Assembly (NCBI GenBank): GCA_921293015.1
Contig: OV121088.1
Location: 32,773,645 to 32,837,644 of the forward strand
Source of the DNA: Phorcus lineatus
Lineage: Eukaryota; Mollusca; Gastropoda; Trochida; Trochidae
DNA: 64,000 nt
Direction of reading: 5' to 3'
Part shown: in pieces, positions 7,108 to 56,320 of the stretch
Position numbering within the stretch: position 1 is the stretch's first letter
Layout: each line of letters begins with the position of its first letter
Position numbers and translations under genes: made by a program
Notes under the pieces: generated by a model
Databases searched by the model: none
Seen by the model: the letters and a program-made list of their open reading frames with translations, nothing else
What the model was told of the DNA's origin: nothing

Positions 7108-10100
7108 TTAAACATGAGACCATCTTGACTGGGATTTATTCGGGTTACAAGTCAAGTTGGGGTTGTCAGGACTAACCTCACCGTCGGTGTGACAATGATT
7201 GTCAATATGACAACTATTACCCTGGAAATGAATAAACTATTGTTTAGACCTAAAGATCAACAGTGAAATTTCTATCTTTACTTACTCATAATAATATCTG
7301 ATATTTAGAAAGACTATTAACATTTTAGTTTGTTAACATTGAATAATACTTTATCATACCACATTTTACTAACCTTCTCATCTTAAAAACACCCAATACA
7401 TATTACTTATAAATATATATTTAAATGTTAAAAGACAAATTTCGATTATACGCACGAAAATCATTACAATTACGTACCTTAATCGTACACGCGGCATCAT
7501 CAACCAGTTTGGAACTAGAACATATTCTGCATTTATCATCGTAAATGACATAGTCCACATCGTTTGAATACCATCCACCTCTAAAGAGGAAAAACCTGTA
7601 TCCATACACACTTCTGTCTGTGAACAAAACGAATCACACAAAGTTTTGGCATTAAATTAAACACTGTAATGTTTCTTCAAGCAACGATTGCTTTCATCTT
7701 ATCCTTGTTAACATAAGTTAGATATAAAATCTTTCATTGATTTTCTTTGAATTTGAATTTGTCTTTTGTATAACATATTAATCATATGTTTAAAAAAACA
7801 TGCAATACATTCTTTAAGAAGTGAAAACCTGAGTCAGTAGTCAGATTGTCACAGGTGTCATTAATCTTACCATATAGAGACAACTTAGGGTAGAAAGCAT
7901 AGCATAAGTGTCCCTAGCAGTGGCAGGTGTGTTTTTAGCAGAAACGGATTAACTTTGCCATAATAATATTTTGATAAATGATATTAACCATAACTAGAAA
8001 CACATGATACGTTTCAAATCTATTTCGGTAAGAGCCTCTCAGAAAGAACAGTACTAATTTTTGGTAGACAAGTACATTTTAAGTGCTGATGGAAAACGAA
8101 AAATAAATTTAGGTTGTTACACGACAAGACAAGATTTAAAGTTAAAGTTAAAGTCATTTGATATTCTCCTCAATGGAAAACCTTAAAAATATGATTAATG
8201 TTTGTGGAGATCATTTTTTAATCAAGTGTCACTGTTCATATTTTGCCTTTTAGAACGAACTGGGAAACTTTCATTCATTCAAAAAATTTAACACCACATG
8301 ACGAATACTCAATATTTGGAGCATTAATATTCGAGAGTAGTTTAAACTAATTTTATTTAACAAATTGAAATATGGACTGATAAACAAACAACAAGAATTT
8401 TTAAACCACCGCAATTTAAACAGGAAGGAAGACACAACAATCCAAATCATCACGCATCTTTGAAATCGAATCATTGAGTGCAAATTGAAATTGCATGTTT
8501 TTAGTGTTGCCTAAAATCAGCTTCATGTCGAATGATGTTACATGTACTTGGAAGTATATTAAGAATTTAGTGAATATTTTTTCAACTAATACGGCTATTT
8601 CTAGCTAAAATGGTGTAAAGAGTTACGGGTATTGCTTATAAACTGAACTACAAAAGAAAATACACACCCCAGGAATTTGATTATTACAGAAATCAAGAAA
8701 TCTTTCGAGCATCTAAAAAGCGTTCTGTTCAACCCCTCACTTCTCTATATCTGTCTGTGTTCATTGTGGGTATATTTTGAAATATACATGGCTCGATTAT
8801 AAGTATGTTTTTCTAAATAGTTGAGTTGTGACCCCAGTACCCTCAATGTAAGCAAAAATACGTTTTCTCATGGAAAAGATTTTGCAGCAGTCGTCTGTGG
8901 GCAACGTCTAAATCCCCAAAATCCCCAAATGGTCCCATTGATGCTCGATCGGTGATAAGTCAGGGGAGCGTGATGTTTTGTCGGTTAAGGTAGTCCTTCG
9001 GGATCTTGGCGGGATGTGGTCTTGCATTGTCCTATTGAAAAATCATCCCTTGCCGCTGCGTCTGTATAAACGGGACCACCACAGTTTGTAACACTGGATA
9101 TGACGAATTGTCACCAAATCTGTATTCTTGTCGCCGCAGATCCCGTCTTAGACCATGACGCTGCCACCGCCATAGGGTATAAATGAAAACATGAAGGAGT
9201 TGGCCGAACGCCCGTCTTTCATGTGCCATCAAACGTCCTGGCAATGTGGGTGTTCAAAACACCCACTTGTGACATTCCGATGACGCTTTCTTGCTCTCTT
9301 TTTCTTCTACTATTCCGTAACACGAGTAGCGAATGATCGAATTCACTGCTTTTAATACTCTTTGCGTGCCCGATTCATTTCAAATTAAAAACATTCCTGA
9401 AAAATAATCACTTTTCCGTCAATTGATTTGCCTGAGTTGCGTTTGGGCGATATATTTTGATTGTTTCCAATCATTACATGAAGATAATACGAACATTAAA
9501 TTCTTCAAAAATTATATCAGATATACCAACATCTTTTTGTATGTACTTTCTTTTGTACTTTTTTAAATTGTCAAGGATTGATTGCCCTACAAAACTACCC
9601 TAATATCGTATTCTGGTATAAAAAATACATATTTATCTTAATTCATGGTATTTTATCAAGGATGAAGAACATGTTCGTTATAGTTGCCTCGTGAAAACCT
9701 GAATGTTTTAGATATGTGTCGTTTGTTTATATCTGAATTTGGCTCACTTCATCCGGTCTTGACGATTAAATGAATAATTGGCAAAACCGAGTCCCGAGAT
9801 ACATGTATAGATAAAAGTAACTTGACATACAGCTGCATGCCAAAAGTTTGTTCACATACCTGTATATACTAGTGCAAAAATCATGTTATTTGAGATGCCT
9901 TTGAGGTATCGTAGCGTTGCGAAAAACAAACGGACAATATTGAATGATGAGCTGCGTTTTTTGTGCACGATGTCTTAGTGCAAGAAACACATGGTTTGCT
10001 CCCAACGTCGGAAATCTATCTTTTGGGATAAAACAATTGTCAGGCTATAATTTAAGTGTGTTGTCTTTGGAAATATAATAATATTCATCCGAGTAGGTTC

Positions 10101-13100
10101 TCATCAATATTAGGCAGTATTTGTTGATGAAGTCAGCTTAGACATGCATAGACGTGATAACTTGTGACTGTGACCACTACATATGCTATTACTGTAATTT
10201 ATTACCTACGAGGGCAATCACACAGGGGGTCATAGTTTTCATACGATTCCCTAGGGCAAATATCTCCTTTTTTTAAAGCAATGCTTTGACGTCACAGATT
10301 GCCTATGACGTTGGGTTCAAAGTACGCCTATGCTTGGGCGTTGATTTTGATTTGTTTTATTTATTTATCGACTTCAGTAATAAACAGAACATCATATTCA
10401 TGCCCATGGCATACTAATAGTATGTTTACGACACGAGTGCTTGATATTAGTATTTCCCGAGCGAGCGACATACTGATAGGCACGAGTGTCGAAAACATAG
10501 TATGTCATTCTCACTTACATGATAACCTCTATGCTTAATACAAATGGGATTACTTAACTGCATTTGTTCCGACTATATACAGATCTTTCATAAGATGAAC
10601 GAAAAGTTTACCTTCAACCCTTTGGCTAGTGAGGTCTAAGGATGTCGCATAATCATAAACAAGCTGGACGGGAAACATTCTGCTTTTTTGAATCAGGGCT
10701 GTAACTGTTTTGTTGAACTGAAAAAGACAGTGTAAGGTTTCGATTTTTTAGAAGATCAATTTTGGAAGCGATTTCATGTGAATGGGTATCATCATTGTTT
10801 TGTTGAATTGAAATAAACCAGTGTTTTTATTTTATTAAGAAGATCAATTGTGGCAGCAACTTGAGGCGACTGGGTGTCATCATTTTGAAAGCTCAATTAT
10901 TTTTGCGAGTTGCAATATCATCATATCATGACTGAAGACAGATGCCGAGGTGATTATATAAAACTAATTTTTGCTTCATTTTAGAGAGCCAAAGTTAAAC
11001 AGTAAAAATCATTTTAATAACTCAATTTCCCGGTAATAATGTTCGGTAGGGGCGGTGGAATGTTATTATTTCTTCAAACGTTCTTCAACAATCATTATTT
11101 TCCCCCAAAAAATTATGCTCTTAAGAGCGTCAAACATGTCATTACTTAACATTTGTCTTAATAATATTACCTTGTCATATTGTGATATACAATTTTTATG
11201 CAGATATATGTCACATACAACAACCATAAGACACCAAGGTTAGGACATTTACTATAAAAGCATAAAAGACAATTAAAAGAATCTATCAAAAAAACCCATT
11301 TAATTTCAAATGAAAAAATGTTTCCGTTTTTATGACATGACTTTATTTACCTAACAATAATGCTACTGTCCCTTTAAGGATTTTTATATCCACTGGTAAT
11401 TATGTTGTTGCGAAAAAAGGACTCGAATGCTCATAAAACCGTTTTGATGCTTGTGTTATCAATTGCCGATTTTTAAATTGCTAAATTTTCTCGAATACCT
11501 ACAATGATTGGAATGACGTTAACATAGAGATCTGTCTGGTTCAACAGTAGGCTGCTATTCACCAAAAGTGTCGGATGCAGACATCTACCAGTGGAAAGGG
11601 CACACGTTTCACCCCTGTAGGATCATATATCCCATCTTTACTTTTAAAGAGAGATGATCGTTTTTTAGTCTATGAAATATCATGGTAATAACTATAAGGC
11701 ATGCTACAAATTACATTATGACCAATGATTGAGTCAGAAATTGTTTTCGCTACCATATGCCCTTAAACAACCCTCGCTTTTGTGAAGTTTCTTTAAATTC
11801 ATGTCGTAAGGCTACTTTAAGGAGACCTTGTTTCAATAACAAATATCTAAGAAAACGTCAAATAATACAAATTATTCAAATAAAAACCACACAAATTTGA
11901 ATTTTTCTTTTATTATTCGAATAACTTGTGTAAAAGGCTATTATTCAGATTTGATAGAAACGAATTACCAAAATTAATTGAAAAGCATCAAGGTTATTTT
12001 TGGACGCATCAATCAATTAACATATATCAAAATTAGGTGTTCCTGTATTGACTGTTCGTTTACAATTTGTTTACATGAAATGTGTTCTCCTTACAAAGCT
12101 GAAAATGTACTGCCTGCAAGCTATCAGTTTTACATTCCCAACTTTACAAATGCATTAACAATTTCCTTTCAAATCGGCTTTTAGAAATATCATCAAGGTT
12201 TTATTGGGTATAGCAGTGTATTGAACATTAAGATATAATAAATCTACATTTTTTCAACTTAACACTTAACACTGCTCACCCAATTATTCTAACAACAGAT
12301 GTCTCTGTTCCGTCTGTGACAGAACAATCTTCAGCGGTATAACCAACATTGCAATGACATATGCCTTTGCTGCAGATTCCATTTAAACTGCAGAAGTTTG
12401 GGCAAATGTCAGTCGTAATCTCGCTTGTAGAAACGTTGAAACTCTGTGACTGGTTAGTGTTTATAAATGCCTTAGTTTGACAAAACCATGTAAAGGCCTG
12501 AACAATCCCAAGGTGTCCTTCCGTCGAATCCGTTTTCTGAAATAATATGTGTAATAATTTTGGTTCATGGCAAATAAACCAGTTGTGATAATTTCAATAT
12601 AGGCAACTTGCCGAAAGCATGGACTATCTTTTCAGATCGCTCAGAATTGTCTTTCATGATAAAATTCATATACGATCTTATGGAGCAAGAAAATGGCTGC
12701 TTCTGCTAATGACTAGCTGTCGAAAGGTTTCAAACCTTTATCAAAAGATATCTATAAACAAACTGTATTGCACCAGAGGCTCACGAGATACTACCCTTAC
12801 TATTTTCCTACCCTCACATTTAAACATGAAAAAAAAAATTCACAACTATGACACTCGTGCTTGTTCTTAATAATAATTACATTCTTTTGAATATTTAATG
12901 TCAACCTACAACAGTATTTTCGAGACAGGCTTTGTTAAACAGGTGCAAATAGGTAATCAATCCATAAAAACACATCTTTGGAGGGCCATTGGTGATTGCA
13001 AATTGACAAGCAGTAAGGCTTGAGTTTTGCAACCGTCCAGATTTTGTTGGCCATGTCCAATGCCTCAAATCATATTCTGAAAAAAAAGTAGACAGAAAAT

Positions 13101-16100
13101 CAAATTCATATATATATAAATTATATGGTAAAAAAAGGTCGTGTATTTTGATGCATAAAAATTCCCGCAAAAAATTCTTTCATAGTTCACAATTTTGAAG
13201 AAACATGAAAAAAGTCACAAATATAAAGAAATATTGCAAAGTGGTTTTGAGTTTATCTTAATGTGTGTTTTTCGCACACTATACAGTTTTACTTACTTTC
13301 CGAAATTTCCGAATTAAGTGTTGAACCGATGTTTGTAGCCTTGATAATGTTACATTTCTGAAAACACAATTTTGTACTGCACAACAATTGTTTACAGCGA
13401 TGTTAACGATATATCACGAAAATTTCAAAGTATTCTTTTCATGGATCCAACACTATTGAATGTCATTGAACTCGAGACATTCGTATTTGCAATGGCCATA
13501 ACAAAGTCACAACTGACAATCGCAATATCATTTCAATAGATTCATAAAATTATCATGTTGTTTATGTAACAAGGTCAGCATGATATAACAAACAATACAC
13601 AGGCATAACGTTCAATACACATGTTTTGACATAAATCTCATTAAATATCGTCCATAAAGATAAACTCAATTGCAAAAGCTTAATCTTGAAATTTAATATA
13701 AAACAATTTACATCAATGCTTTTTTTAAAAAAAAACCAAGTAACTCTGCTCCTGGTACGGTGCAAGTTCTATCAGTTTGTTCAATTTTCATTGTCACATT
13801 ACCAATAGTTAAATGTCATACAAAATAAGCCTTTTTTTTGTTATTAAGACAATTTAGAAATCGAAAATATAACAATGTTGACCTTCTTTGACAAGAAGTT
13901 CAGAACTTCAGAATCCTGTCTGCATGTACTTGACACGGAGTTACAACTACAGTTGGCTGAAGCAGGGATATGTTTCTGCACCTTTGCTGTTCTGCCTCTA
14001 TCACGAAAAAAGCTCGTGCTGCGATCAAGTCTACATTGAAACAGATGTTAAATGTTAACATGTGCAAACCCTATTGTTAGAGATTAAATAAAAACTCAGA
14101 ATAAGATTGTAAACATATTGTAAATATAAGTATACAAAAAATTGGGGACATGAGTAAATAACGGAAACTTACAACTTATAAGTCGATTGATTTTCATATC
14201 TATCATTAAAATTATGATTGCACATTAAATAGATACTCTATATTCTATAAATGTACGTTTTTTAGGTTTACATTCTCGGTCTAGAATCAAGCTTGCAAGA
14301 GGTCCGGGGTTCGAATCCCGGTAGGGCCACGGCAACTTTGCCTGCTGCGGAGAAATGTTCTACATGCAATATGGTTTTTGTGCAATGCTACACTGAATTT
14401 CAACTCAGTACAACACATGGTTTCATCCAATGCTCGCAGGTTTCACCGCAATGCACAAAAGTGTTGCGGGATTTCCATCGGCAATAATACCCGGCAGCCG
14501 TGATTTAAGTGAAATACTCTTTAAAACGGCGTTGAAATCAAATCACCTCACCTTCCGTATTGTTATATTCGTAGAGAACCATGAACCATTATAATGCTCG
14601 ATATTGTTTTATGCTTAGTTGTTACCCAAACCTGAAAAGTAGCAAGTCCTGTTTTGAGGGAGAAGATGTTGCTGCCTCAAATGAACACAAGTCAGTATTC
14701 ATTGACGACTTTTGCAGGGGTCCGTAGAGGAGAATGGATAACTTCGATTTGTACACCTGGACATGTACCCTCGCTCCATTGCTTGCTGTCATCTATTTCG
14801 AAAAAAGAAAATGAAAGTGTTAATGATTGATTAACATGTTGATAGAAATGTTGATGAGAAGTGCCAACGTCACTCCGAGGTGGTACATAAAATTTTTATC
14901 ATTGTAAAACGAGATGAAGAGAAAGTGTAAAATGTTCGTGATCAAGTGTTGAAAGTATTTATAAAGGTATCAAATTAAGATTAGGAAAAATATATGTTTA
15001 TATCATATATACATGTACACAAGAAATGCCGTTTCTTATTTATGGCTAGCAATGCTTTCAAACCATGTATGTCGGTAATTAAATATCTAAGAATTTAGTG
15101 CAACTATTTGAATGCATTTGTATCAAATGACATGAATCCAAACATTTATATTTAACTAATGTACACACCAAATACAGATTACCGCCGCATTCAGACACAG
15201 ACAGTCGTTCTTCTTTTGAGTTCCGAGTGATGACTGGCACAGTCTTGTAAGTACAGATGTCCAGAAACACGATCTCGTCTCCATACCTCATCGCAACTCC
15301 ACACGTTGAGGGTGTTTCTCCATCAAGTATCATCTGTCTCACGTGTATCTGTGAATCATACTTTCAGTATTCTGTCTCATGCTCTTTAACCTTTTTGTTT
15401 AAAAAAATATACTGACAAGCATTAATTTTTATCGGAGAGAAAACATATAGCTGTCTTCAAGGGAAACTTTTATGTAACTGTCGTGATAAGTTTCTGCATA
15501 ACGGTTTCAAATAATCAAACATTTTACAACGAAATTGATTAGAGCATGAATTACTCTTATCTACTAAAATTGCTACGCTTTTGTTTAGAAATAAACAATG
15601 AATGTTGTAGAAATGAATAAACATTCATCAGTGAAATATAGCAGATAGGTGCAAACCAAAACGAAGGAAGAATTATTTTGAAAGAACTTAGACGTTATGC
15701 TCCAAAAATTACCTCAAGTTGGTTACCTATGTCCATGGATGAGTTGTAGAGTAAAAAGTCCCCCGGGTATTCAATGGTAGATACTCTAATAATAACAAAG
15801 ATATTAATCCCAACAACAAACATTATAACCAAAATGTATGCTGTATTTTGTTGAAAATATCTGAGAAATTCTTTCAACGAAGAAAACGAAAGAAAGAAAG
15901 AGAAAAGTGACTTGATGGTTTTTGAACGTAAAAACTGATTCTTCTGATCGACATAAATAAAACATTGTAGTTATATAATATTTAAAATTCAGATGTTTTG
16001 TTGATCTTCATAAAAATGATAAGTACATATAAAATACAACCTTGTTTTGTCGAAGCCAAAGACATGGCAATCGGGAAACACTGTGCAGGCGATGTTCTTT

Positions 16101-19100
16101 GTATTTTTTGTTGTAATCTGCGAAATGTTATACATATGACATATGAATACCTGTACAGACAAGTTGTAGTTGAAAGATTGCATTTCAATTGTTTGATTCT
16201 TATGATACTTAAAATACAAAACTCATCAAGAAAAGTGAACGTTTGATAGAAATTCAAGATTAATAGATTAAGTTTGATTTGCTAAAACACAAGCACTCAC
16301 ACAAACGTTGAACCAATGTGTGAAATTCAATATTGTGAATAATGTGTTTAATAATTGTTACTAATATAGCTGAAAAAAACCAAAGCAATCTTGTGACTTA
16401 ATCGATTTAACAATGTAGTATAATCATTGTTATTGAATTAGAAGGCCGTTTTTGCTTTTTCTGACTTTTTGCAAAATTTGAATATTTCCTATATCGTTGT
16501 TCACGCGAATTCAAAGCAACTTTGCATTTATACTCCGGGTCCTTTAGAATCAAATATATAACCTGAATACGTATTTGTTAAATAACTTACGAGGTTGAGT
16601 GCGGAGTGAAAGTAATATCGAGAGGTATTCACTAAGTATAAATGCCTTTAAGGAAGGAGAAAGCAGAACATGTTTTTATCCATAAACGTTACCATTTGCT
16701 ATTGATGATAACCATTTCGGGTTTGCTTTGCAAGAAATCATAGACAAAATACATTATTTACCTTAAAATCTACTCTTTGATCTTGCCAGAAGCTATTCAA
16801 GTTGTAGTTAGGTTGTATCTGCAAGCTAAGCTTATGCAGTTTATCCAGATGCAGTAGATTATTATATCGTATTCTGAGTGTTTGTGTTGATGTCACACTT
16901 TTTGGCCAGCTTATTAAAGTGATGGCACACTTGTCTGTAGTGAAATCCACGTCTGTAAAATACATGCAAATAAAATAGAATTTTGAGTAATATTAAAACA
17001 CGATACCATATTTGTGTTGTTGCAATTACATTGCACAAAACGTTTGTTTTGATACCATGACATTATCGGCAGAAACAGCACAAAAACATGACATGAAGTG
17101 TTTTAGTAAACTTTCGCTCACATAATTTAATGAAAATTGTATAAGTTAATTCACTCGACACAAAATGGCTTTAACAGTAAATGTCATTGGAAACTGACAA
17201 AAGAAGCAAAATATTTATACAAGAAATGCATTTGCACTTCATCTTGCTCTATGAACTCCTATATGATTTGAACGATCACTGTGATCTTCTGTGAACTAAA
17301 GAGCATGTACACTGTTACTACAACAATTTAATAACCTAAATCAAGACAATAAACCTTTATGATGTGATAATATTAAAAATATCATAAAAATCATAAGTTC
17401 ATAATAAATATCGTCATGGCTACGCGTTTGGTTTCAATTTAAAATTAATTGTAACATGACTTCGTTGTATTCTCGATTCTGATTGGTTGATTAGAAAAAA
17501 ATTACCCTATGTTGAATGACAATGAATAACGGCAAATTAGCTAAGGCGAATCACCGCGAATTGATACATGTTCACTAGTGCCAGCCCGACTCAAGTTTTA
17601 ATTTTCCAGTTTCTTAGAAAATTCTACTCCGATTGGACAGTTGTTTTTGTCATTTTTAGACTGTGTCTACTGGTAGATATTACAAATAAATTCTAATATG
17701 ATTTATTTTTGAAGAACGAAAAAAATTTCAACTGGCTTACTTAGACCAAGTTTGCCGCAAAGTTTCATGCGGCCGCCTTCTTTCGAAAGCCGTTCCCACA
17801 AAGGCCAACCGTTTTGACGTCACAATGTTTGCGTCGCTGTCACAATGGTCTTGGGCTAGTTTAAGATTTTTGTTTTTTCGGGTTTTATGACATTTTTTTT
17901 AATGAGCTTTATAATTGTTGATTTCGGTCTCAAATTAAACAACTACGTTGTAAGGTCTCGTTATTAGAAATGCCACCGTTTGGCATTATCAGTACGATGT
18001 TTGTAATGTAAATTATGCCGGGAATTTACATTAGTTAGACCAAAATACACCTCTCACAGAAATAGAACGGTAACAAAGTCCTTTCTACATCGAAATAAGT
18101 ACGCGAAATAAGAGTTCGCTCTTAAACTTCTAATAACCAACAGTCATGTTACAATATCGATAAATAGTTGCGTTTGTAAAATTTCCGGGAGTCAATGTTA
18201 TTCAACGCCCGCAAATTTAAGCGTTCAAAACCTCCGGTTGACGCAATCGGTTTTAAACTAAATTTGCGGTTGTTGAATAACAAAGAATCCCGGATATTTT
18301 ACAAACGCAACTATTTACCTTCTAAAGAAACCGGAACTTACTTTGGTTATTATTGTCTATGCTGAGGACGAGTGAACAGTACGAAAACCAATAATTGTTG
18401 CAAAGAATTGGAAGAGTAGAAGAGATCGTCACTTCAGTTTCATGACCCTCTGTGAGAGCGTTAGGTTGCGGTTCAATCTATCAAAATAAGGACAATTAGT
18501 GCTCTGTGTGTGCCAAACGTTTCGACACATGTTAAAGTCATAGTCTCATTTTTGCAAGGCAAATTGTAATGCATGCCGGACAAATAGTTCACCACTCACA
18601 GAAATCTTACCCCTGACGTTTGCAACAATTTTCAGAACTCTGCAGGCATTCTAGCCCTTAATAATGAAGTTCAAACTACCCTACCCTACCCGAATATTAT
18701 GTGTTTGGCGAGCGTTAGTCCTTACCATGTCATTTCGCTAAGGCCGTGACGAAGAACACATAAAATTTCCCAGCTGAATATCCGATGAAAATAGAAAATA
18801 ACTTACGCTTTTTCAAATACAGAAATAACGAAAAGGTGGTAAACTCAATGAAAATGCGTATGTCATAAGTATCGACGCTGCAATTGCAAGATTTCCGGTG
18901 TTTCGCACTCGCGATGGGATAGCACTTGCTTCAGTACCTCATCGGTCTGAAACAGCATACGCTAATAAACGGCTTCATCCAAAACTGTAAAACGGGCATA
19001 AAAATGAAAATCTTTGCAAACGGTACAGGAAATATTTGTGTTAGTGATCAGATTTTGTTCGTTAAAATAATTGGTTCAGTTTAGTTGGCTTACAAAAATG

Positions 19101-27100: not shown

Positions 27101-30100
27101 AGATAATTCGATTCAACAATGCCAAAGAGTATACTATTGGATTTATTGTCAAATATATAGAGGATACTAAACGACCTTCCATTTAATACTATTTTTATTA
27201 AACGAGTTAATGATTAAGTATAAAACGAGCGAAAGCGAGTTTGATACCAAATCATTAACGAGTTTAATAAAAATAGTATAAAATGGAAGGAAGTTTAGTA
27301 TTCTGTTTATTACTTGACCTCAGTTATCAAGCATTATTACCGAAAGTGTACTGAACGAAGCATTTTCGCGACTAAGTCGCCATTGAGACGTCGGTGCCAA
27401 GATTGTGACGTCATATGGGTAGCGGTATTGCACTAGTTTAATATCGCCGTATAAATATTACACTGCGGTATCTTACACGGGCGAGTAATAATATTTTTGT
27501 TTCGTCATTTGTCGTTCTTGTATGTTGTGTAAGAATTAGGCTCACACGGACCAATATCAAACTTTATACAGCACTAGCAATCTCTCACAATATGGATAAG
27601 TTATTATTTCTTATGTAAAGATGTGTATATGATTTTTATGATTTAACTTGTTGATTGTTAATTCATTTCTACTAAGCAAAGAATTCTTATATTTGATAGT
27701 TATTGAAGAATGAATGTGTAAAATTTATACACAAAAACATTCTTAACCTAATTCCCTTTGGTGGAACGGTATTATATTCCTATCGTGAAAATATTTACTA
27801 AGACAACATTGTTATATTACAGCTCTCATGCAAAGTAAACTTCAACCATACTGAGTATGAAAGCACAGCGTATTGGGGAGGAATCAAGGTAATAAACTAT
27901 CTTAATCTTAATCTAACTTGTTATATTATCATTTTGGATCATATCATGTATTCATAACATAATCAATTTCAAATGTAACATTGTTAAACTCGGGATCAAA
28001 CTACTCGTATCTGCCAAAGTAGAAGCAGCTAACCACGGACGAGTTGGGTAGCTACTAAATGCTGTTGGTATTGTCTGACTCTGAGGGTGTGGGTTCGAAT
28101 CCCGCATGCATGGGACTTGATCCGAAAAAGTTTAAGAATCTGTACTATTGCAAATAGTGATCCCAAATATAACAATGTTTCAACTGTTCAAGATCTAAAT
28201 GTCATATATCTGAACTCTGTCGATATGTTGAATAAATGTTGATTTCTGCTTAATATTCCCTATCTATCATTTTCATACAGTTGACCATTTCCCATAGTGG
28301 CGTTCCAAGCTATCTACCCTCGATGTCACGCTCACTGTAAAGGAAACGAAAGTAGAGATAAATCAGCAGTAGAAAGTCAGTTTAAGTTAACATCATACTC
28401 AGGATACTGCAGTCATAAAATCAATCAATATTGAATAATGTTTAAAGTTATGTCTAGTAAGCAATCATTTAAACAGCGGGCAGTAATACTTAGGATTTTG
28501 ATCATAATTTTGTCCTTTTGTTTCGTTAAAATATCTCTCGAATAATATTTTTGGCACCTCGAAATTAATTTGTGCTTATTCCAAATATTTTATTAGAAGA
28601 CAGCTGAACACATTTACACACCTAAATAGAATAGACCTGCTGCCTTCTTCAGTGTCTACGATTTTCCACTGATATTATCATAAATAATAACAGCAATTAT
28701 AAAATCATATAGCTGGCGTTATGGTACATGGTTTGAACTATCAAGAGTAACCTCAAAGAGATATTCACGTATGGAGTCAGAGTCAAATATGTTGTTACGT
28801 TTTCTGAAAGTTACTTGACATTTTATTAAAGTAAATTTAGTAAAGCAATAAAGTTAACGTCGTGCAAATGATTTAAAACCTTGAAATAATACATCGGCCC
28901 GTGAGACAATTGAAATTAAGGAAACTTATCAAAAAGCAGACAAAAATATAAATTTGGGGTTGTAGTGTTCAATCGGTCATTTAACTAGCTACCATGTAAA
29001 TGGGTTCTGAAACGCTTGATAAGTTACGTGGATATGACCGTTGCTAAATTGGCCTTAGGATCGATTGTAGGAATTTTATGGAACGGGAACATGTTATTAC
29101 AACTTATTTAGGCAAGGTTACATGTTGTGCAGTTTTAGTTTGATAAGAAGTTTTCAGATAGAGGCGAGTCCGAACAGGATAAGAGAGGGTGAGGAAACAC
29201 GACTCACCATACAGTCCACTCTCCCCATCACCTGTGGGCCAGGGGTCTCTGATAAGGATTGTCACCTTGATGTGGACTTAATCATTGATGGCGAACAAAG
29301 CTATTCAGGTAGTTGAAGAAAGATACAAAAGTTACAAATAACTTTATCATCCAAAACTGTGTTCCACAGAATATTAGTTGTTGGAAGATCAAGTGATATG
29401 TCCTAGGAGATTGCCTTTTCATCATCAAAACATGACATCACGATGCTATGACGTTACAAACGTGATCATTCCCAATACTTTCATATCACCTCAATTGGGG
29501 ACTGAGGGTAGTGCATTAATCAGAAATGTACATTTTATCATAGAACGTAAGGTAAAATTATTTTGTATGACAAATATAATCTCACCGTTGTGTCTTCTGA
29601 ATTCAAATATATCAACACTTGTCGATAAAAGTAAATATATCCTTCGCAAGCCTTGGATATTTGCATATTTTAGCAACCCATGTTGATATATTTGATATTC
29701 TCTATGTTCCTACATGCTACTTAACTACTTTTTCTTATGTAATACATGGTTCTGTTCTAATAATCATTTTCTAAACTCTTTACGGTACCGTAGAGGATGT
29801 ATAAATATATAAATATATTGCCAATTGCTTGAGAACAATATAAGCTTTGTCAAAAGGTACGTATCAAAGAATAAATATCGTTCTCAATGTTTAAAATTTT
29901 TTGATTCCATGTTTTGATTTCTAAGACAAGATGTCGGTAATGACATAACTACATTTCTAATCATGTAACGTACCTTAAATTGCTGACGACGACAATTGTA
30001 ATAAGGATATAGAAGAACCTGAAATTGGCGTAGTCATTTGTATTCCGGAAATTGTGCGATGAATAGAAATAGTCTGTCTGTTACGAGGTGTCTTTGTATG

Positions 30101-33100
30101 CACTGTATTAATTCAGGAAAACAGCTAGGCGACAGCAAATACATGTATATTGATATGACATTGTTTGAAACAAATTTATTTTAGTGAAATGCATATTTTA
30201 CAATAATACTCATCATTTTGAATGGTTTTAGGAATATTTGGTGTTGGTGCCTGCAATGCAACATTAAAACGCTCTGACTGGAACAACGATACCTTGATAG
30301 TTGAGACCACGATGACGATAGTGCCAAGCATTGACCCTGTTGTCAAACCCAACATTACAAGAATATTGGCTGTTGAAGCAGTAAAGGGGCAAAACATTCC
30401 TGATCTCTGGAAGACGCTAAATAGCAATACTACGGTAAGGTATTGACTCAAACATGTAACAGTAACTTGCCCTTTGTTTATCTTGTATTTTCTTCTTGTT
30501 GTTTTAGACATAGGTCAATTTAATTTTATTCTTGTTGGAGTTTAAACAATATTTAGTTATTTTTTGGTTATATATAAAGTACTGTGAGAGTAACGTAATG
30601 AAGGAATAAAATATTTTTTGACACTAATTTTTTTGTAGATTTAAGGCAAACATCGTTTAAATAGTTATAAACACATCGTCTTAACGTATTTCTAGACAAA
30701 CGTGAAAGATAAGAATTTCTGAATAACAAGTTCTCACTTGTTCAGTTCACGACCTTTCAGAGTATGTCCATTCAATGATGAAAGGAATATCTAAATGTCC
30801 TTATTTTATGAAATATATAACGTATGGTTGTATACAAAATGCTGTTTTATCATTTAAGTATATCATGATTATGTTCTCATTCTATCTTGATGATGATAAA
30901 ACATAACAAATTTTGCCATCCACGCTTGACAACGAATCTAGAATCAATATCGAAACATCGCAAATCTAAGAATAAAGAAGTTGTCATCCATGAATATTTG
31001 TACTTCATTTTTGCAATCATATAAAGAAACTTCTACGGTTTTGCTATCCTTTGTTGTGTTTATCCAATGAAATAATCAAATAATTATTACTATTTTGTAA
31101 TATTTCAGATTATGCAAACTGACGTCGAACACACAAACTGTTTTCTGTTTGGACAGAATCATATTCGCGGAACTAAAAGCCAGTAAGTTAGAAACAAGCA
31201 ACACAGCAATTATCAAGAGAAGTCATAATTTTGGAAGATTGATATATCTATAAAAAAAACATTGTGGTTTGAGAAATAAAGAACATTCCATATTTTCATT
31301 TATTGACGTATCTAATTGTTCACGACATGATTAACATCTACTACTTACAATGATACTTAATCCATCGGGTTATTCTAATTTTTGTCTTGGGCAGAATGCT
31401 TTATAGTATCAAGGGAAAACACGCAGAAGGGATTAAAAGTTTAAACAGCCATTGGGAAGGATGAAAGGAAAAACGTGTAAACTGATAACTGAAAATATAT
31501 AATCTATGTTTTATCAGATTATTTGCGCTGAATTCGACTGGAGACTTTTTGATGTTTAAGTCTGAAGACGGAAATTTTCAGGTAATCATTGCAAAACTTA
31601 CATATATCTAACGACAAACCATTTTCATCAAATAGTCTTATAAATGGATATGCCCAATGGAATGAATATGTATGTCCATGATTCTGTGTTCATCGATTAT
31701 GCGGAAATAAGAAATGAAGGCAAAGACACACGATTTAAAAGACAATGGTTACCCTTCTTAACAATTCGGAGCTTTTCATCGCATCTTGACATGGCATCAA
31801 TGATGTTTGTTACCTAGAAATAAATCTTACATATCCCTAACGACAAACCGTTTTCATCAAATAGTCTTATAAATGCGAATGACATGAAATATGTAAATAC
31901 ATGGTTCTGTGTTCATCTATTCTAAGGAATTAACGAGTGAAAGCAAAGACACGATTTAAAAGACAATGATTACCCTTCTTATAAATTCTGAGCTTGTCAT
32001 CGTATCTTGACATGGTATCAATGATATTTGTTATCTAGAAATAGGAAGCTTCAGCTGTCTCATCATAGTTAGTGGCATGATATTTCATTCGTCCCTACAT
32101 AGTCCATAGTTCTAGAGTGAAGGAGATTTACCATGACAGACAGACGGATAAACAAGTTTATTCAGTAAAAAGGCAATAGGCCCATGACATACAATGACAT
32201 CATGTTTTTCATAATGTCAGAATATGGCTATGATAACACCTGAAAATGTATGATAGTGTTAGACGATATTTGGACAAAAAGTGATGTCATAAAAGAAATA
32301 TATTCAGTAGTGCGATTTATATACTAGTGTATTCTTATAAATGTTATCCTTACTAGTGTATCAATCTGTTTCATTACAATTAAAAATAACGCCACGACTT
32401 GACTCTTCCAGGAAAGACTGATTTTCCCTCTTGTTGTGCATTTCGATCATATTTGAAATGAATAATGAACGATAGTGTGTCAGTTACCAAACTCGTACTT
32501 TTTGTGTATGGCAATACAACCATTCACCCTTGTTTCATATCAATGAACATTCAAAGAAAAACTATCTTTTGATTTCTGACAATTCAGATTCAAACACGAC
32601 ACATGATGGTCGGAGACAGTTATCCCTCCACGTGTGCAGTGGCGGTGGAGTTTTCCGAGCATGTCATCACTGTGGACATGTGCAGAGCACATGGTGATGA
32701 CAACACAGAAACTGTCATCACACAACGGGGTGACCTCAACAGCGGCATGTACACCTCCCACTGTGGGATGGCCGATTTGGAGGTACGTTTCATCCTGGTA
32801 CATCAGCTTATATATGTCGGCGAAGTTCCATCTGTACGCCTAATCTCATATTTATAACCAGCCAATGAATTTACTTTAACTCGAGCAATACTAAATGTTT
32901 CCGGATGAGAGGATGTTTGACCTTGACACCCCAGTCTGGCTGAAAACAGTTTATTCTTTACGTAGCCCTGAATAACTTCGCATATGCTGTATTGAAAAGT
33001 CTGGCATTATCTAAAATTTCAGAATCTTAAAAAAGCGTAAACCTCGGTTAGATCAAATCAGTCAATACAAGAAACAGCTATCCTTGAGAACAATGGTGTG

Positions 33101-36100
33101 AGGTGAAGGTGTAGAAGCCCAGTGATGTCACTTTTTTAGTTAAAGTTCCTATGAGGTTCAACCAATATCACTATCACTCTCACTTATGATGTACATATAA
33201 GCCATAAATATCTAATCAATAGATACCATATTAATATATACCATTCAAGGATTTGGTGTTTAGTTAATAAAATACGTTTTATTGTGTTAAAGTCAATTAG
33301 GTGTCTACGCCTCGAAGCTTAGCGTAGCAATGAAGAGGTCGTAACTCACTTCTAACGCTTCTTACTTACCACTGCGAAAGGGCACAAACTATAATATGCA
33401 AAAACCTATTAATTCACTTTGACCAGGAGGCGTTGTCATATGGTATATAATATTTCTAAAAAATTGCATCAAAACCCGTTGATGTATCGAGAGGTGAGGT
33501 GAGGTGAGTTGGTGTTTAACGCCGCTTTCAAGATTATTTCACTTATATCGCGGCTGCTAGTATTATTGCAGGGAGAAAGCCCGCAACACCATTGTGGCTA
33601 TGCATTGCGGTGAAACCTGCGAGCATCGGCTGGAACTAGCGAACCATGGGTGGTACTGCGCTGAATTTCAGTGCAGCATTGCACCCAAACCTGACTGCAT
33701 GTAGAACAGTTCTCTACTGCAGACAAAGTTGCCGAGCCCCTGGCGGGATTCGAACCACGGACCCCCTGCGCTATCCCGCCCCGATGTATCGAGAAAATCC
33801 ACTAATGAATACTCGGAACGTATAGCCTCAGTAATTAAGGATGTTCACATTAACCAATGTGGTTCAAGTTTATCATTATCTGTGTCAGCTTTTCGCAGAA
33901 AAGTATACAGAGACAACTATTTCATCAATAAGACTTTTGATTTTACAGCTGAGCACAGACACGGATATTCGAGTCGAGGTCAAAGTTCAGAAGCATAACC
34001 TTGACATAAACGTTCATCTCCCACCATCTCTAAAAACCGGACAACAGGGGGGTTTCTGCACAAATTCTAAACCAGTTTGGTATGAACAATAATTTTATTG
34101 TTTCTTGTTTGTTTTTGTGATATACGGGTATGCCACTAAGTCAACAGGTATTTTCGTTGCATAGTACGATTTCAAATTTGTGTCTCAAAATGACATAGAA
34201 TATCGATCATAAAATATAATTTGGCTTTGAAACGTGCCAACCTACCATATGTTTGTTTCAAATCTACTCACTGAACGTATATACTCACCCTAAAATTTGA
34301 AAAAGGACATTTTCATGTGTTCAATGATATTTAGCAAAAACCTGTCAATATGTTCAGAATCCGTAATTATACATCCCTATACCAGCTACGTATACTCTGG
34401 TAACATGACTTATTCATTTCGTTTTGTTTGCTTAAGAAAGAAAGCATTAACAGACCACCATATGCTAATTCATTTACAATGAGTATTTCAAAATCCCTGA
34501 TGATTTAAAGATTCAGGAAAGAAACTCTTGGCTATCCACTCTAGGGTCGATATTTCCTTTGCAACCTATGAACGGGATATGGAGCTCCTGTAAACCTTGA
34601 AATGTTATACTTCGGAACCCTTGAATTCTGTAGCTTCTAACATTCGAGATACTCTGATGAGTAGCATTTTACGGTGAATAATCGTCTCAAAAGTTCGATA
34701 AGCTGTTGATTTGACTTGAGTCTTCATTTAGTCAATTTAACTTGTAATTACCCGCACATATTGCACCTACCCTTAGCATTTCTGCGTGAACTTCATGCCA
34801 TTTTCCGCGATTCAGCAGATTTATTGGATGAGTTTATTCAGATGAGTTATATAAGATATACTTAACATTATTTAAAAAACAAAATGTCTTCATGATATCA
34901 AACTGCATGTTATAGAAAAATAAAATTCTTGTAGGTGTGTTGTGTTTCTTTTCCGAGGAGTCTGTTTGTTTTTTGCAGGGCAGGTGACCTGTTCAAAGCC
35001 AAAGATTCTGATATCTGGAGGTCGGCAAATAATCCATCAAAGTTTTGTGACTGTGTTTCTGATACGAGCAAATGTAAAACCAGTTTATCAAGGCACGTCA
35101 CAGCACCGATAGCAGATCCAATTGAAAACATGGTGAATAAAATCTGCTTTTCCTATTGCTTTCTCAAAATTAGAATTAATGAGTTATCTTGACATGATAT
35201 TTAAACTGTTTTACCTGAAGAGTAGAAAGCCATTAAATGTTTGGATAGAAGGCAGTTCCATACCAAAATTGTTAACATTTCAATGTACAGCTACTGAAAA
35301 AATAAGTTTTTTTTAGAATTGTCTTTGTAAATTAACAATTTTGAAAAATTACAAATTGTAAGAAAGTTTTACCAGAACAGTTTGCGAACTAATATTTAAG
35401 CTCAATATGTTTGAGATTTATTTCTTCACTCGATATACAAGGTACATAGTTATGGTATGCCGCAGCTAGTTCTGGCATTACTCAAAAGAGGTATGGGGTA
35501 AAACTCAAAGAGTCTGGATATGTGCGAAAACAATAGTTAAGACCCTCCAACATTATTATTGTTGTGTCAATTTATGGTAGTGATTAAAATTTATCTTTAT
35601 CAAAGGTGACTAGGGGTCATAACTAACGATATCTTTGAAAATATAATGCATGTCAGTGCAATTGAAGGTTTAGTGAAGACTTAATTTTGATTATGAAGTC
35701 ACTGTATGCTGATTTTTCCCCAGATGTATTTCTGCAAAAATATAAAACTTCACAAGGATGTACCAAGAAAAGATGAGGTCATGGGCGGTAAGTTGATGCT
35801 ATCTTTGAAAAACTAATCCTTTCAAAGCTAAAATAGACTTCGGCCAATATGTAGATACTAGTATTCACATTTTATATCCTTACCGATGTGCTGATGATCT
35901 GATGTCAATCAATTTACCTCTCCATAAGATATGGTACCAATTAGTCTGTGAATATTGACAGACAGACAGACAGTATTTATTCAGTATTCAAGGCCATGGC
36001 CCAAATTACAATAACTATTACAAATCCATATGCTGCTGGTAAACTTGTTACAAGATACGAGGTACAGGAATTGGACAAGCAACCGTAAAATACCTGGAAG

Positions 36101-39100
36101 ATTTCAACAATTATCATAAATACTATACAATGTAAAAAATAAATCATGTAAAGAGTTAACCGAATTGTGCATCCCTGTTGAAGACATCAAACCACCTGTA
36201 CATGAATGGACTGATCCTGGACGGAATGAGTCAGAAGCTACTATGGAGTGTCAGCGTGCTCTGGAGACTCTTGTTCCAGCTTACTGTCGCCAGTCTGTAG
36301 CAGGGGTTGTTCCGGGGTCTTCCAGCTTCAAGCACACCTGCATGGATGACATAAAGGTGCGCTTCTAGCTTTGTTCCATTTTGTTATTTCTAAAATTTTG
36401 CTAACGTCCAATTCCTTTGTTTCAAGAAGTAATAGACGGCATTACATGGGTTTTTAGGCAATTTCTACAGATTTATTAACAATGGTGTGTTCTTTCAAAT
36501 CCCTTTTAAATCAGTACATTTAATTAGTAATCGAAGAAAATCCATAGATTGTGCACTAACATAACAATATGAAAACGTTAAGAGATATCGATACAATTGG
36601 AAAGAGCATTGAAAATAGGCAGTGGCTGTAAAACTCTCAGTTGACTCCGCGAAACGATCACATCTCAAAATGCTCTGCTGGGAAGGTACTCAGTCATTGT
36701 TTTTCATTTGTTGTGAAATTTTTGCATGTATACAGTTTAACAATCTTAAGTTGATAGAGCATTTGAAACCGAAATTTGATGTCTCACTTAAGAATGCCAA
36801 TGTTTAATTGTCCCTTGTATACTGCAACATGATGCGCTGTATATATAACACAATAATGCTGGTAATTTCAACGTTACATATCTTTCTAATCCCAATGGAC
36901 TTACATAGTATATTAACGCTTTATTAAAATGCGTTATAGAACTCTGGCAGTTTGGACTATGTAAAGAGTTCTCTTCAAGGATTTCTTTGGGAGTGTCAAA
37001 TAAACATACTGAAGAACCCAGACAATTACCTGCGCAATCACGACCAATACATACCTCCGGCGGAAGTGACGTCAGATATGTGTCCAGACTTCTGCAATAT
37101 GCACGGGGAATGCAAACGTGAAACCTGTCATTGTGAGAATGGAACTATGGGAGAAGATTGCGGAGTTCTGGTCGGAGATCCGCCAATTATTGTTGATATA
37201 CTCGGGTAGATGTTGAAGATATTTATTGAATATTTAGTCTTAGCTAAAATTCCGTCCTTAAACTTGAACATTTGCTTGTGATAAGGTAATTCAATTGTTA
37301 TGTATTAATTATGTAAATTGAAGGAAAGAATTCAGTGCCTTGTGAAGAATAGTAAGTACTAGTAATAGTAAGAGACGACTGAAGACTACGAAGTATCAAA
37401 GCCTTGATAAAATCCGATTTGTGATCAGTTCAAATGCTTTTGGCACAATAACTTTCCTTGATTTAAAGTCATTACTCTCACAAGACAACACTAAGGCGAA
37501 GATTATGTTTAGCTTAAAAATCATATTGATGTGTCATTTGTTTAATTTCGCATTTATATTATTTTTTCTGGATTAATAGTGAATATTCTCACAGTTTGAC
37601 AAATTTTGGAAAGAGTATATTATGCTTAAAACTCATATTAATATGTTATTTTATTGTATAGTGGCACCTCCTGCAAGAGTAATGTCGAGGATTGTTCAAG
37701 ACCCGTGTTGTTTATCAGAGACGCTCTCCGAACCGTTACAGCAAAACTAAAGCCAATTAGGGTACGAAGACGTGAGTTATAGCAAATAGTTGAGGAAAAT
37801 CTATCAAATAACTGTGAAAAACGACTTGTTCGGTTTTGATTTATCTGGTTCTTAGGTTTTCTCACATAAAACCCTCTTCCAAAACGCACACAGTATTGTT
37901 GTAACACTCGATAACAAGAGTTATCAGAAAATAACACATTATAATCAGTCCCACGTGCAGAATAACATCTTTATGATCATGAGATGAAAAATCTAAAAGC
38001 AAAGACTTAACTTCTCTATGAAAAATGAAGTCTTTTTCAGAACTTCAGGTGGGTGATATCCATGCAAACTTTCGGAATGATATCATGCTTGGACTTTTTA
38101 CGACGATTCAATGTCCTATCATTTCACGGTTCTTTTTATATGAAATATGGCCTAAGCTAATTGAAAAGTACAAATTAACGGAGAAAAGCAGTTCCGAATG
38201 CCAGTTTATATTATTCATTTTTCTTCCAGATTTCATGATAAGAGGAAATTTAATGGCTTTTGTCTACTCTAAATGGGTCATATATTGTTTTATGATAACT
38301 TAGCTCACTACATGTATGAAATAACAAAAGTTAGTTTTAAAAAACTGGAAGTATAAAAGGATAAATTTTAGTTTACATCGAATTGTAAAATCATGTTTAC
38401 ATTAACAGATTGATAAAAAGATTGTTGATACTCTAAAATGCATTAGACATTTGGCATGTACGTTGAACATAGTTAAATCTACAACAATGATCCTCATTCA
38501 CATTTTTAAAATCTGCTCTTTTCCATGTAACTCATTTATATACTTGCTATTGCTGTCATATCAGCTCAGACAGTGCTGTTTTAGATTAAAGGAGGCAAGG
38601 CCATTACAGTGATTAATGAAATCGTCATGAATGTCACTTTAACAAGCCGTCACGGATCCAGAATTGACATTACTCCGATCATGGCCCATTTTGATGGTAG
38701 GAAGACAATAAAGAAAATTTCGTAGAGCCATTATCAAACACATATTTCTTAAAACATTTATAATAATGAGATTAACATGTTTGTCGAATTAATGAAATGC
38801 ACTTAAAGCCATTTATCTCTTTACACCCGTGTCTGAAAACTACGACACAGCGCCTGCATTTTGTTTGCAAATATTGTGAATGGTAATAAAAGTGGAACAT
38901 TAATTGTTATTTTACTTGTTCTCTTGAGTAATTATATCAATAAATAAAATAAAAAATTAGTCAATACAAATATAATTCTCTTTATCTCACTTTTTAAGGC
39001 TATAAAAAATGTATGGAGATGCTATTCCTTATTAAAGAAAACAGAGAAGCACAATTATTTTCTACCTGGATTTGCAGATTCAACTGCCTACGGTGTGAAT

Positions 39101-39741
39101 TTCACCCTCTCAAATGATGGAGTGAAGTATGGAAACAGTTTTCAGTACTACGTATATGACGAAATCTGCCACAAGTGCCTTATGGAAGAAAATCAATGGA
39201 TGTGTTTCGAAATGGTATTTCATATGACGTTGAATGTTCATGTTGGAACTTCCATTAGTTTTTCCCTTCAAAGATATAATCAACTTTGTCGTTGGATAAA
39301 TTTTCCAGTAGAGAATCAACTATTGATATGTTGTCCCAAATTATTTAAAGTTTTTACATTGTATTTTAGCTTTCAATCCATCAAAGAGACTCGTAGTTGC
39401 AATACTACTCCACTATATTATCCGTAGAAGTAAAGGTCTATGGCCAAATTATGTGTTATTTAAATAATGAAAACACTAACCGGTGAAAAGCGATAAGGTA
39501 TAATGTACTTTAAATGAGTTTTTTTTCTATGTATCGGATTTGTTCGATGACGTGAGAGCTTATTTGAATACATTTTCTTGAACTATACAAATAGTATAGC
39601 TAAATCATTTACTTTCAGGATACCGGATGTCGTATAAACGGCAAATGCTACAAGAACGGGACACTTAACCCACAGAATGCATCATTGAAGTGTAAACCGG
39701 AGTGTGCTGTAATGAAATGGTCTCCTGATGGACCGTGTTAG
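24167..39741 (+). CDS. VWDE-like secreted protein B (D8C, VWD, EGF), 18 exons
   Basis: Hand-spliced exons: 24167-24212, 25942-26331, 26676-26899, 27823-27888, 29158-29308, 30232-30434, 31109-31182, 31518-31581, 32588-32782, 33949-34079, 34979-35132, 35724-35787, 36154-36356, 36940-37205, 37662-37761, 38585-38696, 39078-39214, 39619-39741. They total 2703 bp, 900 codons plus stop, in one frame. A signal peptide (MLISVLSVSLFLCRF) is followed by D8C (about 52-145), degenerate VWD (about 365-515), one EGF module (about 703-729) and a cysteine-bearing tail ending SPDGPC. No membrane anchor was seen. The exon order and all intron phases equal those of gene A. The acceptor of exon 13 has a poor pyrimidine tract. 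A possible AATAAA signal lies at 40140. It is probably an extracellular glycoprotein with several N-glycosylation sequons; the function is not known. Confidence 0.87.
24755..25005 (-). pseudogene. Tc1-type transposase relic in intron 1 of gene B
   Basis: The minus strand reads DPAHSKTTVSLVLKKQHRQC, then RSPDLLPVEHYWVRLGRRLK, then RSNN, a stop, and QALQHEWENISTAVV. This matches the C-terminal third of Tc1-type transposases (DNARPH..., SPDLSPIEHVWDxLGRR..., LxxEWxxIP). It has stops and is inactive. It differs from the relic at 8.9-9.25 kb, so it is another family or subfamily. Confidence 0.65.
26049..26331 (+). other. D8C domain of gene B
   Basis: The domain opens with CDDLDGWYRLETGQ and continues through SSCVKQYRCGTQAPIWLND, SVPPV, FCVDH, CCTFTRQMSVMNCGEF and CPSALC. 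It is closer to the family consensus than the copy in gene A because it keeps 'CGTxxPxWLN'. It fills the 3' part of exon 2. Confidence 0.9.
27153..27310. repeat. Foldback (MITE-like) element in intron 3 of gene B
   Basis: The left arm (about 27164-27226) contains 'tactatttttattaaacgag' and 'ttaatgatt'. The right arm (about 27239-27301) is its reverse complement, with 'gagcgaaagcg' at the turn. The left edge, 'tatatagaggatactaaacg', also occurs in complement at 59594-59614, which marks a shared terminal sequence. Confidence 0.7.
27380..27510 (+). repeat. Dispersed repeat with gacgtca and gggcgagtaataa motifs
   Basis: The stretch from 'gtgacgtcatatgggtagcg' to 'cacgggcgagtaataatatt' is similar in spacing and wording to 46110-46200 and, in complement, to 58205-58260. 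It may be the remaining part of the foldback element just upstream. No coding content. Confidence 0.5.
28015..28130 (+). repeat. tRNA-like SINE head or tRNA pseudogene
   Basis: It carries a plausible A-box region ('gagttgggtagctactaaat') and a clear B box ('tgggttcgaatcccgc') about 40 bases later. A complete cloverleaf with a paired acceptor stem could not be drawn, so this is more likely the head of a SINE than a working tRNA gene. Confidence 0.4.
31597..32043 (+). repeat. Tandem pair of about 225-bp repeats in intron 8 of gene B
   Basis: Unit 1 (about 31597-31822) and unit 2 (about 31826-32043) share 'aacgacaaacc', 'ttttcatcaaatagtcttat', 'cgatttaaaagacaatg' and 'atcttgacatgg', and close with 'tagaaata'. 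They differ by scattered substitutions and short indels. No coding content. Confidence 0.75.
32125..32215 (+). repeat. Dispersed repeat, copy 1 ('tttattcagta...ggccc')
   Basis: The run 'gacagacagacgg', 'aagtttattcagtaaaaagg', 'caataggcccatgacataca' resembles 35955-36015 ('gacagacagacagtatttat', 'tcagtattcaaggccatggc'). It probably represents the 3' end of a retroelement. Identification is by eye only. Confidence 0.45.
33493..33782 (-). mobile_element. SINE with intact target-site duplication, intron 9 of gene B
   Basis: In minus orientation it begins with a tRNA-like head containing 'gtggttcgaatcccgcc', runs through the same body as the SINE at 14268-14560, and ends in 'cggcgttaaacaccaactca' and a 'cctca' tandem tail. 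It is flanked by a perfect 12-bp direct repeat, 'gatgtatcgaga', at 33481-33492 and 33783-33794, which is the target-site duplication of the insertion. It is therefore a young copy. Confidence 0.85.
35950..36065 (+). repeat. Dispersed repeat, copy 2
   Basis: It starts with a short GACA run and 'tatttattcagtattcaagg', then 'ccatggcccaaattacaata', similar to 32125-32215. It lies about 90 bp before exon 13 of gene B, whose acceptor is weak. Confidence 0.4.
36940..37205 (+). other. EGF-like module exon of gene B
   Basis: The linker is followed by MCPDFCNMHGECKRETCHC and ENGTMGEDC, the same short EGF type and the same position as in gene A. The exon ends in phase 2, as does its partner in A (12280-12536). 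Confidence 0.87.
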
Positions 39742-54998: not shown

Positions 54999-55921
54999 TC
55001 AGAATGGTGTGAATTCTAGATTCGTTATTCCAAAAACTCTTTTCACAGGAACATCAATTGGATCTTGTGTATGCATAAGCGTTGCTGACAGAGCAGGTTC
55101 AAATCCAACTTCTCTGAGTAAAGCATTTATAAAAGAGTTATCATTAAATGTATTGACAGTAATCAAATCTCCCTCTGGAACAATGTCAAGGAGTGCTGTG
55201 AAGAGTTTGAATTCAACTTCAGCTGAATCCCCATTTATGGGAGCAAAGCGCCATCCTTGGTTTGCCTTTCGCAGTACTGTATAGCCAACAACTTCACTGC
55301 AAGCATTCACTGCAACAAGAGCGATCGTTCCATGTCCAGTGAAAAATGCACTCAACACGCTCTTTATTGGACTGAAAGTGCCATCATATTTGGCAACCTA
55401 ATCGAATGAAATATCATTAAAAGGAACTATCCTTATGTTAGCACTTAATCCAGACTGATAAATTGCCTTTGAATTCTGCAGTGAAAATCCTTTAGGTTTC
55501 CTTAAAGACCACATGGATATATCGTGTGAAGGATGATGAAGATTTTTAAGTTCTCAAGGTTGGACTGATATGCAAAGAATGATGATATCTTCTAATTGAG
55601 AATATATCTCGTTCATGAGGCTCCTTCCAATGGAAGCGTTTCGGTAACCCTTGCCCACTAGGAGTAAACCAACCATGGCTTTCCTTTGGTCTTCATACAG
55701 GTAGAATGCACACGAACCTAGAATAACATATACAAAATAATTGATTTCACTACCTTATTTGAACATTCAAATATTAAATTTAAATAGTCTATCTTACCTT
55801 AACTAACTTCACTCAAAAGAAAAGGTTTACAATCGATTATCAACAGATGGACAAGCTGATTGCATGATCCAATTTCCGTTCTTAGAACAGGCCAGCAATT
55901 TCCTATTCAATAGCAGAGAAA

Positions 55922-56129
55922 GATTATACAGTAAGTTAGGTGGTGACATTTGCAATATTTTGGCCATCAGAAGATAAAACACAATAGTTGCTTAGAAGAT
56001 TAGTAAAAGTAATCATACCGTTAACAATCAATTTCTTACCAATTATTTTCCCATTCACTGCGGCACCATACCAATTCATACCCGAAAGACTGTGACAAGT
56101 TTGAAGGTAACTGGCATCGTTATTCCATC
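55922..56129. repeat. Direct duplication, copy 1 (covers the 3' part of GNAT exon 2)
   Basis: The segment from 'gattatacagtaagttagg' to 'atcgttattccatc' is repeated at 56321-56527 with only about four differences by eye. It includes the end of exon 2 and its GTAAGA donor. Confidence 0.92.
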
Positions 56130-56320
56130 CTTCTGCATTTGTTAGCCTTTCAATTGTTAAAACTTCATGTGTCTTAATGGGTCGGACTTCTATACCGTTG
56201 TTAAAGGCTCGACAACTCTGCAAAGACAAATTACGACCAATTCCATGATTTTCACTCATATTTGAAAATAAGCTTTTATATTTAGAGGTAAGTATGTTTT
56301 TGAATCCTCTAAATTTGAAA

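Follow-up and report, generated by a model that had tools for sequence, protein, structure and literature searches.

The 64-kb stretch of Phorcus lineatus contig OV121088.1 analysed here (G000:C13:32773645-32837644, referred to as the window; positions are window positions unless a contig is named) contains two divergently oriented genes with similarity to VWDE-like proteins, gene A on the minus strand (21273-7108) and gene B on the plus strand (24167-39741). Splice models were rebuilt starting from matches between the minus strand at 6-22 kb and the plus strand at 23.5-41 kb and extended by exon-pair alignment, with exons 1, 10-12 and 18 of both genes fixed by reading the sequence by eye. Both models have 18 exons, AG/GT intron borders, no internal stops once spliced, and a short, cysteine-bearing last exon; no convincing phase 2-2 candidate for an extra exon was found in the intron between exons 10 and 11 of A or B. 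A first-pass annotation of this DNA had described a head-to-head pair of 18-exon genes with equal intron phases, low protein identity, a cysteine-bearing tail exon in each and a 2.9-kb spacer, and the rebuilt models bear out this description, apart from the tie at one intron noted below. Its totals of 901 and 900 residues hold for A (901 aa) and require correction for B (890 aa), for which 900 residues are reached only through an exon 13 acceptor at 36154, presumably the one used in that model, with a splice score of -8.4 compared with -0.2 for the acceptor at 36184.

The best models of A and B have the same phases at all 17 introns (1,1,0,0,1,0,2,0,0,2,0,1,0,2,0,1,0), and 12 of the 17 intron positions coincide in the alignment, the remaining five being at most six columns apart. 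The initial pairing of A and B exons imposed equal phases and was circular, and later tests were run with phases free. A free-phase exon-chain alignment of A and B scored 618, compared with 87, 91, 93 and 106 for four control pairings, and had equal phases in just 10 of 17 exon pairs; around exons 10-12 the chain went astray because it was drawn to a repeat carried by both genes. Targeted free-phase fits, with search intervals set from neighbouring exons or anchors, reproduced the expected phases of internal exons in 14 of 16 cases in B (fitted with peptides of A and of its tandem copy A2, described below), in all 16 in A2 and in 15 of 16 in a further copy on contig C5. The alternatives for B exon 14 are nearly tied (87.8 vs 87.7), and B intron 15 has two candidate phases, 0 and 1, as the exon pair 37662-37771 / 38592-38696 (phase 1), which was picked by the free-phase chain, ties with the model (phase 0). 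The two proteins are 28% identical (243 of 854 aligned residues). Synonymous sites look saturated, with 32 of 87 fourfold sites equal. At the level of sequence, A and B are supported as old paralogues that have kept the same exon layout.

Two copies of a repeat of roughly 270 bp, which share 78% identity, are located at 14295-14553 in A intron 10 and at 33497-33769 in B intron 9. The copies lie in different introns and therefore represent separate insertions, which rules out the shared repeat as proof of common descent.

Regarding domain content, exon 2 of both genes matches uromodulin and GP2 in the PDB (best E 3.7e-10 for A and 8.8e-7 for B), and a fold model of A exon 2 alone, of modest confidence (predicted local distance difference test, pLDDT, 66), matches GP2 with E 4.7e-7 and a template modelling score (TM-score) of 0.64, while Pfam D8C remains under its cut-off of 27 bits in the two genes (22.6 and 20). 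The EGF profile built from the family scores 35.0 bits in A and 22.6 bits in B, and the Pfam teneurin EGF model exceeds its cut-off in A only. Of the D8C-VWD-EGF label given in the first-pass annotation, the D10C and EGF parts are supported; in neither gene does Pfam detect a VWD domain, even at E<=1. A VWD profile of 23 relatives scores 23.9 bits in B and 17.3 bits in A, in the latter over the first part of the domain alone, the best of 1000 shuffles reaching 5.7 bits.

The public relatives found are mostly bivalve. The bivalve VWDE-like proteins (P0001-P0026) have the same order of D10C, VWD and EGF domains and align with A and B from end to end (hhalign E 2.9e-40 over 796 columns; BLASTP up to 112 bits) at about 20% identity. 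Among the conserved cysteine columns of the relatives (n=38), 34 are kept in A, 34 in A2 and 33 in B, and among the other conserved columns (n=94) 37, 36 and 39, respectively. A and B differ from the bivalve proteins in the addition of a cysteine tail and in that the VWD domain has lost its DPH motif and part of its end, and from most of them in the absence of furin-type sites and a membrane anchor: R-X-[KR]-R sites, present in 22 of 23 relatives, and a strong C-terminal hydrophobic segment, present in 18 of 23, were not detected in A, A2, B or the C5 copy. The products of A and B look like soluble VWDE-like proteins with a complete D10C domain, a degenerate VWD domain and one EGF domain, without a membrane anchor.

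Just left of the window, starting about 10 kb past the stop of A, lies A2 (minus strand, C13:32770580-32748014), with 18 exons, of which exons 1 and 18 were chosen by eye, 902 aa and the same phases as A, whose exons 2-17 it mirrors. A and A2 are equal at 596 of 898 residues (66%), with 0.21 nonsynonymous (dN) and 0.54 synonymous (dS) substitutions per site (Nei-Gojobori method, NG86) and a dN/dS of about 0.4-0.5, which suggests purifying selection. Judged from these comparisons, the nearest relative of A among those found is A2, in tandem. Right of the window a 3' fragment of B is present (C13:32860129-32861321), covering exons 16-18 at 61-80% identity and with one internal stop. The 220 kb left of the window and the 20 kb right of it yielded no further copies.

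Searches of the whole genome (957.8 Mb, 74 contigs) with B as query gave at least 51 matches, and the matches listed include at least 18 places with a D10C exon: eight on C32, five on C13 (A, A2, B and two others, at 4.39 and 31.92 Mb), two each on C19 and C17, and one on C5. A genome search with Pfam D8C added one D10C place, on C7. When the D10C exon of B was used as query, 11 places ranked above A2 (rank 12) and A (rank 13) among the 17 others in the matches listed, and with the EGF exon of B A2 was at rank 6 and A at rank 11 of the 16 listed. In the 17 kb that were read for the C5 copy (called D), exons 2-18 were modelled (17 of 18) and exon 1 was not found. This copy scores 377 bits against A, compared with 295 bits for B against A, and with full-length B as query the scores are 325 bits for the C5 copy, 316 for A2 and 285 for A.

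Trees were calculated after four of the 27 proteins found, all shorter than 850 aa, had been dropped; P0027, a protein on a JGI contig, was also dropped from the tree with the C5 copy. In that tree the C5 copy groups with A/A2 (94/87), and A, A2 and B form a clade in 1% of bootstraps. A tree of the D10C domain, calculated without the C7 place and without three of the 23 relatives in which too little of the domain is present, also places the C5 copy with A/A2 (94/82), with the A-A2-B clade in 5%. In a separate tree analysis, when either A or B is left out, the remaining one stands alone, outside the relatives. Of the check proposed earlier, alignment of A and B and a tree with VWDE-like relatives, the alignment confirmed homology of A and B from end to end, and the tree joined the C5 copy to A/A2 instead of B.

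Elsewhere on the contigs searched, two family D10C exons separated by about 72 kb, at C32:10951640 (minus) and C32:11023684 (plus), are oriented outward, a second divergent arrangement. Another VWD-rich cluster is located at C41:14241047-14299910, with eight VWD matches in about 60 kb, some of them with internal stops.

We consider it probable, at roughly 0.7, that A and B belong to a large VWDE-like family and sit here in a local cluster with A2 and the 3' fragment of B, their exon layout being inherited from the ancestor of a subfamily and their products soluble. The family would have spread through the genome by both tandem and dispersed duplication, in an order that we infer. As the layout is shared by the C5 copy, it is regarded as a subfamily trait, which would derive from the subfamily ancestor and not from a local inversion that produced A and B. 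The first-pass annotation is right and careful as observation and too narrow as interpretation: an old duplication with a fixed gene structure stands in the sense of old paralogues with a conserved layout, but a special duplicated pair does not, with A nearest to A2, 11 listed places nearer to the D10C exon of B, and the C5 copy nearer to A than B is. A number of points weigh against the family interpretation. The dispersed copies were ranked on one exon at a time, with B as the only query, the full-length scores of the C5 copy and A2 with B are close, and the branches in the trees are long. The approximately unbiased test does not reject the A-A2-B clade in the tree with the C5 copy (p-AU 0.0855) or in the D10C-domain tree (p-AU 0.134), and when the C5 copy is left out, A (with A2) groups with B at 100/100, a clade that is gone once that copy is added. 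Furthermore, the family profile of the stretch preceding the VWD domain matches neither A nor B, and that of the stretch following it matches B and not A. The same tree results, together with the adjacent, divergent positions and the equal exon layout of A and B, are what would be expected if one local inverted duplication had set the two genes head to head, A being copied in tandem later and other copies moving to other chromosomes. This history appears doubtful, given the grouping of the C5 copy with A/A2 and not with B, the places nearer to the D10C exon of B, the presence of the layout in the C5 copy too, and a spacer (GC content 32%) in which no mirrored homology better than E 0.02 was found. 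As the branches are long and the clade is not rejected, a private duplication of A and B is disfavoured, not excluded.

Start sites in bidirectional gene pairs usually lie within about 1 kb of each other. The start codons of A and B, which are not transcription starts, diverge as would be required if a shared bidirectional promoter and co-regulation had kept the pair head to head, as the first-pass annotation had allowed, but the 2,893 bp between them exceed that distance, the spacer lacks mirrored blocks, and A2 and the C5 copy sit outside it, so the family needs no such shared spacer. Nothing in the sequence points to a shared promoter, and this explanation seems improbable. It is highly improbable that A, B or both are decaying copies in which the layout is a relic: the low identity, the degenerate VWD domain and the nearby partial copy of B with its internal stop would be in keeping with decay, but the reading frames are open across 18 exons in A, A2 and B, the dN/dS between A and A2 is well accounted for by purifying selection and the cysteines are retained. 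Hardly any weight is given to a convergent origin of the architecture of A and B in two unrelated families, for which the identity of just 28% might speak, as opposed to an A-B alignment that runs from end to end, matching intron positions and a chain score far above those of the controls. Membership of A and B in a dispersed VWDE-like family would make the locus mostly the result of ordinary gene-family expansion, with no special mirror-image pair; neighbouring genes with equal exon phases need not form such a pair, since the same layout is present in A2 and on contig C5.

Most likely, each gene encodes a soluble, disulfide-rich extracellular glycoprotein, predicted to be secreted, in which a hydrophobic N-terminus would be followed by the D10C domain, a stretch alignable to the part of the bivalve relatives that follows their D10C domain, the degenerate VWD domain, the EGF domain and the cysteine tail. 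A role in extracellular adhesion or recognition would be likely, with the cysteine scaffold fixed and the surface free to vary, and our best guess is a secreted, disulfide-rich protein of recognition or adhesion.

Table 1. Exons of the predicted models of genes A and B and the spacer between them (window positions).
Feature	Position	Strand	Remarks
A exon 1	21222..21273	-	hydrophobic N-terminus
A exon 2	20632..21039	-	D10C domain, ten cysteines
A exon 3	19978..20213	-	
A exon 4	19542..19628	-	
A exon 5	18342..18477	-	
A exon 6	16762..16952	-	
A exon 7	16041..16117	-	degenerate VWD begins
A exon 8	15713..15785	-	VWD-like
A exon 9	15169..15348	-	VWD-like
A exon 10	14632..14792	-	VWD-like
A exon 11	13883..14030	-	
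A exon 12	13297..13357	-	
A exon 13	12910..13076	-	
A exon 14	12280..12536	-	EGF
A exon 15	11503..11614	-	
A exon 16	10612..10717	-	weakest match, 31% to A2 and 11% to B
A exon 17	7478..7617	-	
A exon 18	7108..7221	-	cysteine tail and stop
Spacer	21274..24166	.	start codon to start codon, 2,893 bp, no notable mirrored homology
B exon 1	24167..24212	+	hydrophobic N-terminus
B exon 2	25942..26331	+	D10C domain, ten shared cysteines and one more
B exon 3	26676..26899	+	
B exon 4	27823..27888	+	
B exon 5	29158..29308	+	
B exon 6	30232..30434	+	
B exon 7	31109..31182	+	degenerate VWD begins
B exon 8	31518..31581	+	VWD-like
B exon 9	32588..32782	+	VWD-like
B exon 10	33949..34079	+	VWD-like
B exon 11	34979..35132	+	
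B exon 12	35724..35787	+	
B exon 13	36184..36356	+	alternative acceptor 36154
B exon 14	36940..37205	+	EGF, alternative start 36951 near tie
B exon 15	37662..37761	+	alternative end 37771
B exon 16	38585..38696	+	alternative start 38592
B exon 17	39078..39214	+	
B exon 18	39619..39741	+	cysteine tail and stop

Other features of the window include frames resembling a remnant of a DNA-transposon transposase in A intron 16 (8846-9253), in which Pfam found nothing, and a 221-bp tandem repeat in two copies in B intron 8 (31593-32043). Outside the two genes, an open frame at 43083-43622 has a weak match, under the cut-off, to the zinc-binding region of reverse transcriptases, and a GNAT acetyltransferase exon (Pfam PF18014, E 2.7e-9) lies near a 212-bp tandem duplication with 98% identity (54999-55397 and 55918-56527).

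No paper dealing with this cluster appeared among the results of the literature searches, although one may exist. Regarding genes of this type in other molluscs, VWDE-named transcripts are among those most upregulated between oyster families in a parasite-tolerance study, according to the part of the article consulted (PMC9892467), and one list in the available text on infected flat oysters contains nine VWDE genes (PMC9679248). By analogy, an immune link is plausible for the genes described here. Like A and B, P0027 combines the domains of the D10C, VWD and EGF family with a cysteine tail of the same kind and lacks a strong hydrophobic segment at its C-terminus; it is distant, on a long branch, and has one R-X-[KR]-R site. 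Vertebrate VWDE shares the set of D10C, VWD and EGF domains with A and B, a likeness drawn from domain names, not sequence, in partial descriptions, and vertebrate vwde has been linked to blastema growth in excerpts of PMC9117669.

The D10C decoy module of uromodulin and GP2 shares sequence, fold and ten cysteines with exon 2 of A and B. Pfam detected no ZP module in A or B, a difference from uromodulin and GP2. The high-mannose glycan sites that bind FimH are given in extracts of PMC8930769 as UMOD N275 and GP2 N65; the position of UMOD N275 is occupied by Q in A and K in B, and the GP2 N65 site is present in neither. The sequon common to A, A2, B and the C5 copy aligns, by manual count on the alignment, with UMOD N232 and not with N275, which rules out a FimH-decoy role through conserved glycan sites. 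A wider interpretation, which we regard as unlikely, is that a soluble, lineage-expanded D10C family (at least 18 places with B as query) with a decayed VWD domain, without furin-type sites or anchor, with cysteine scaffold and exon phases retained and with a diversifying surface, could serve as a recognition or decoy repertoire of the haemolymph, an invertebrate counterpart in kind of the uromodulin-type binders. If this were true, the genes would allow the role of the D10C domain to be probed outside vertebrates, in a family that is both soluble and expanded.

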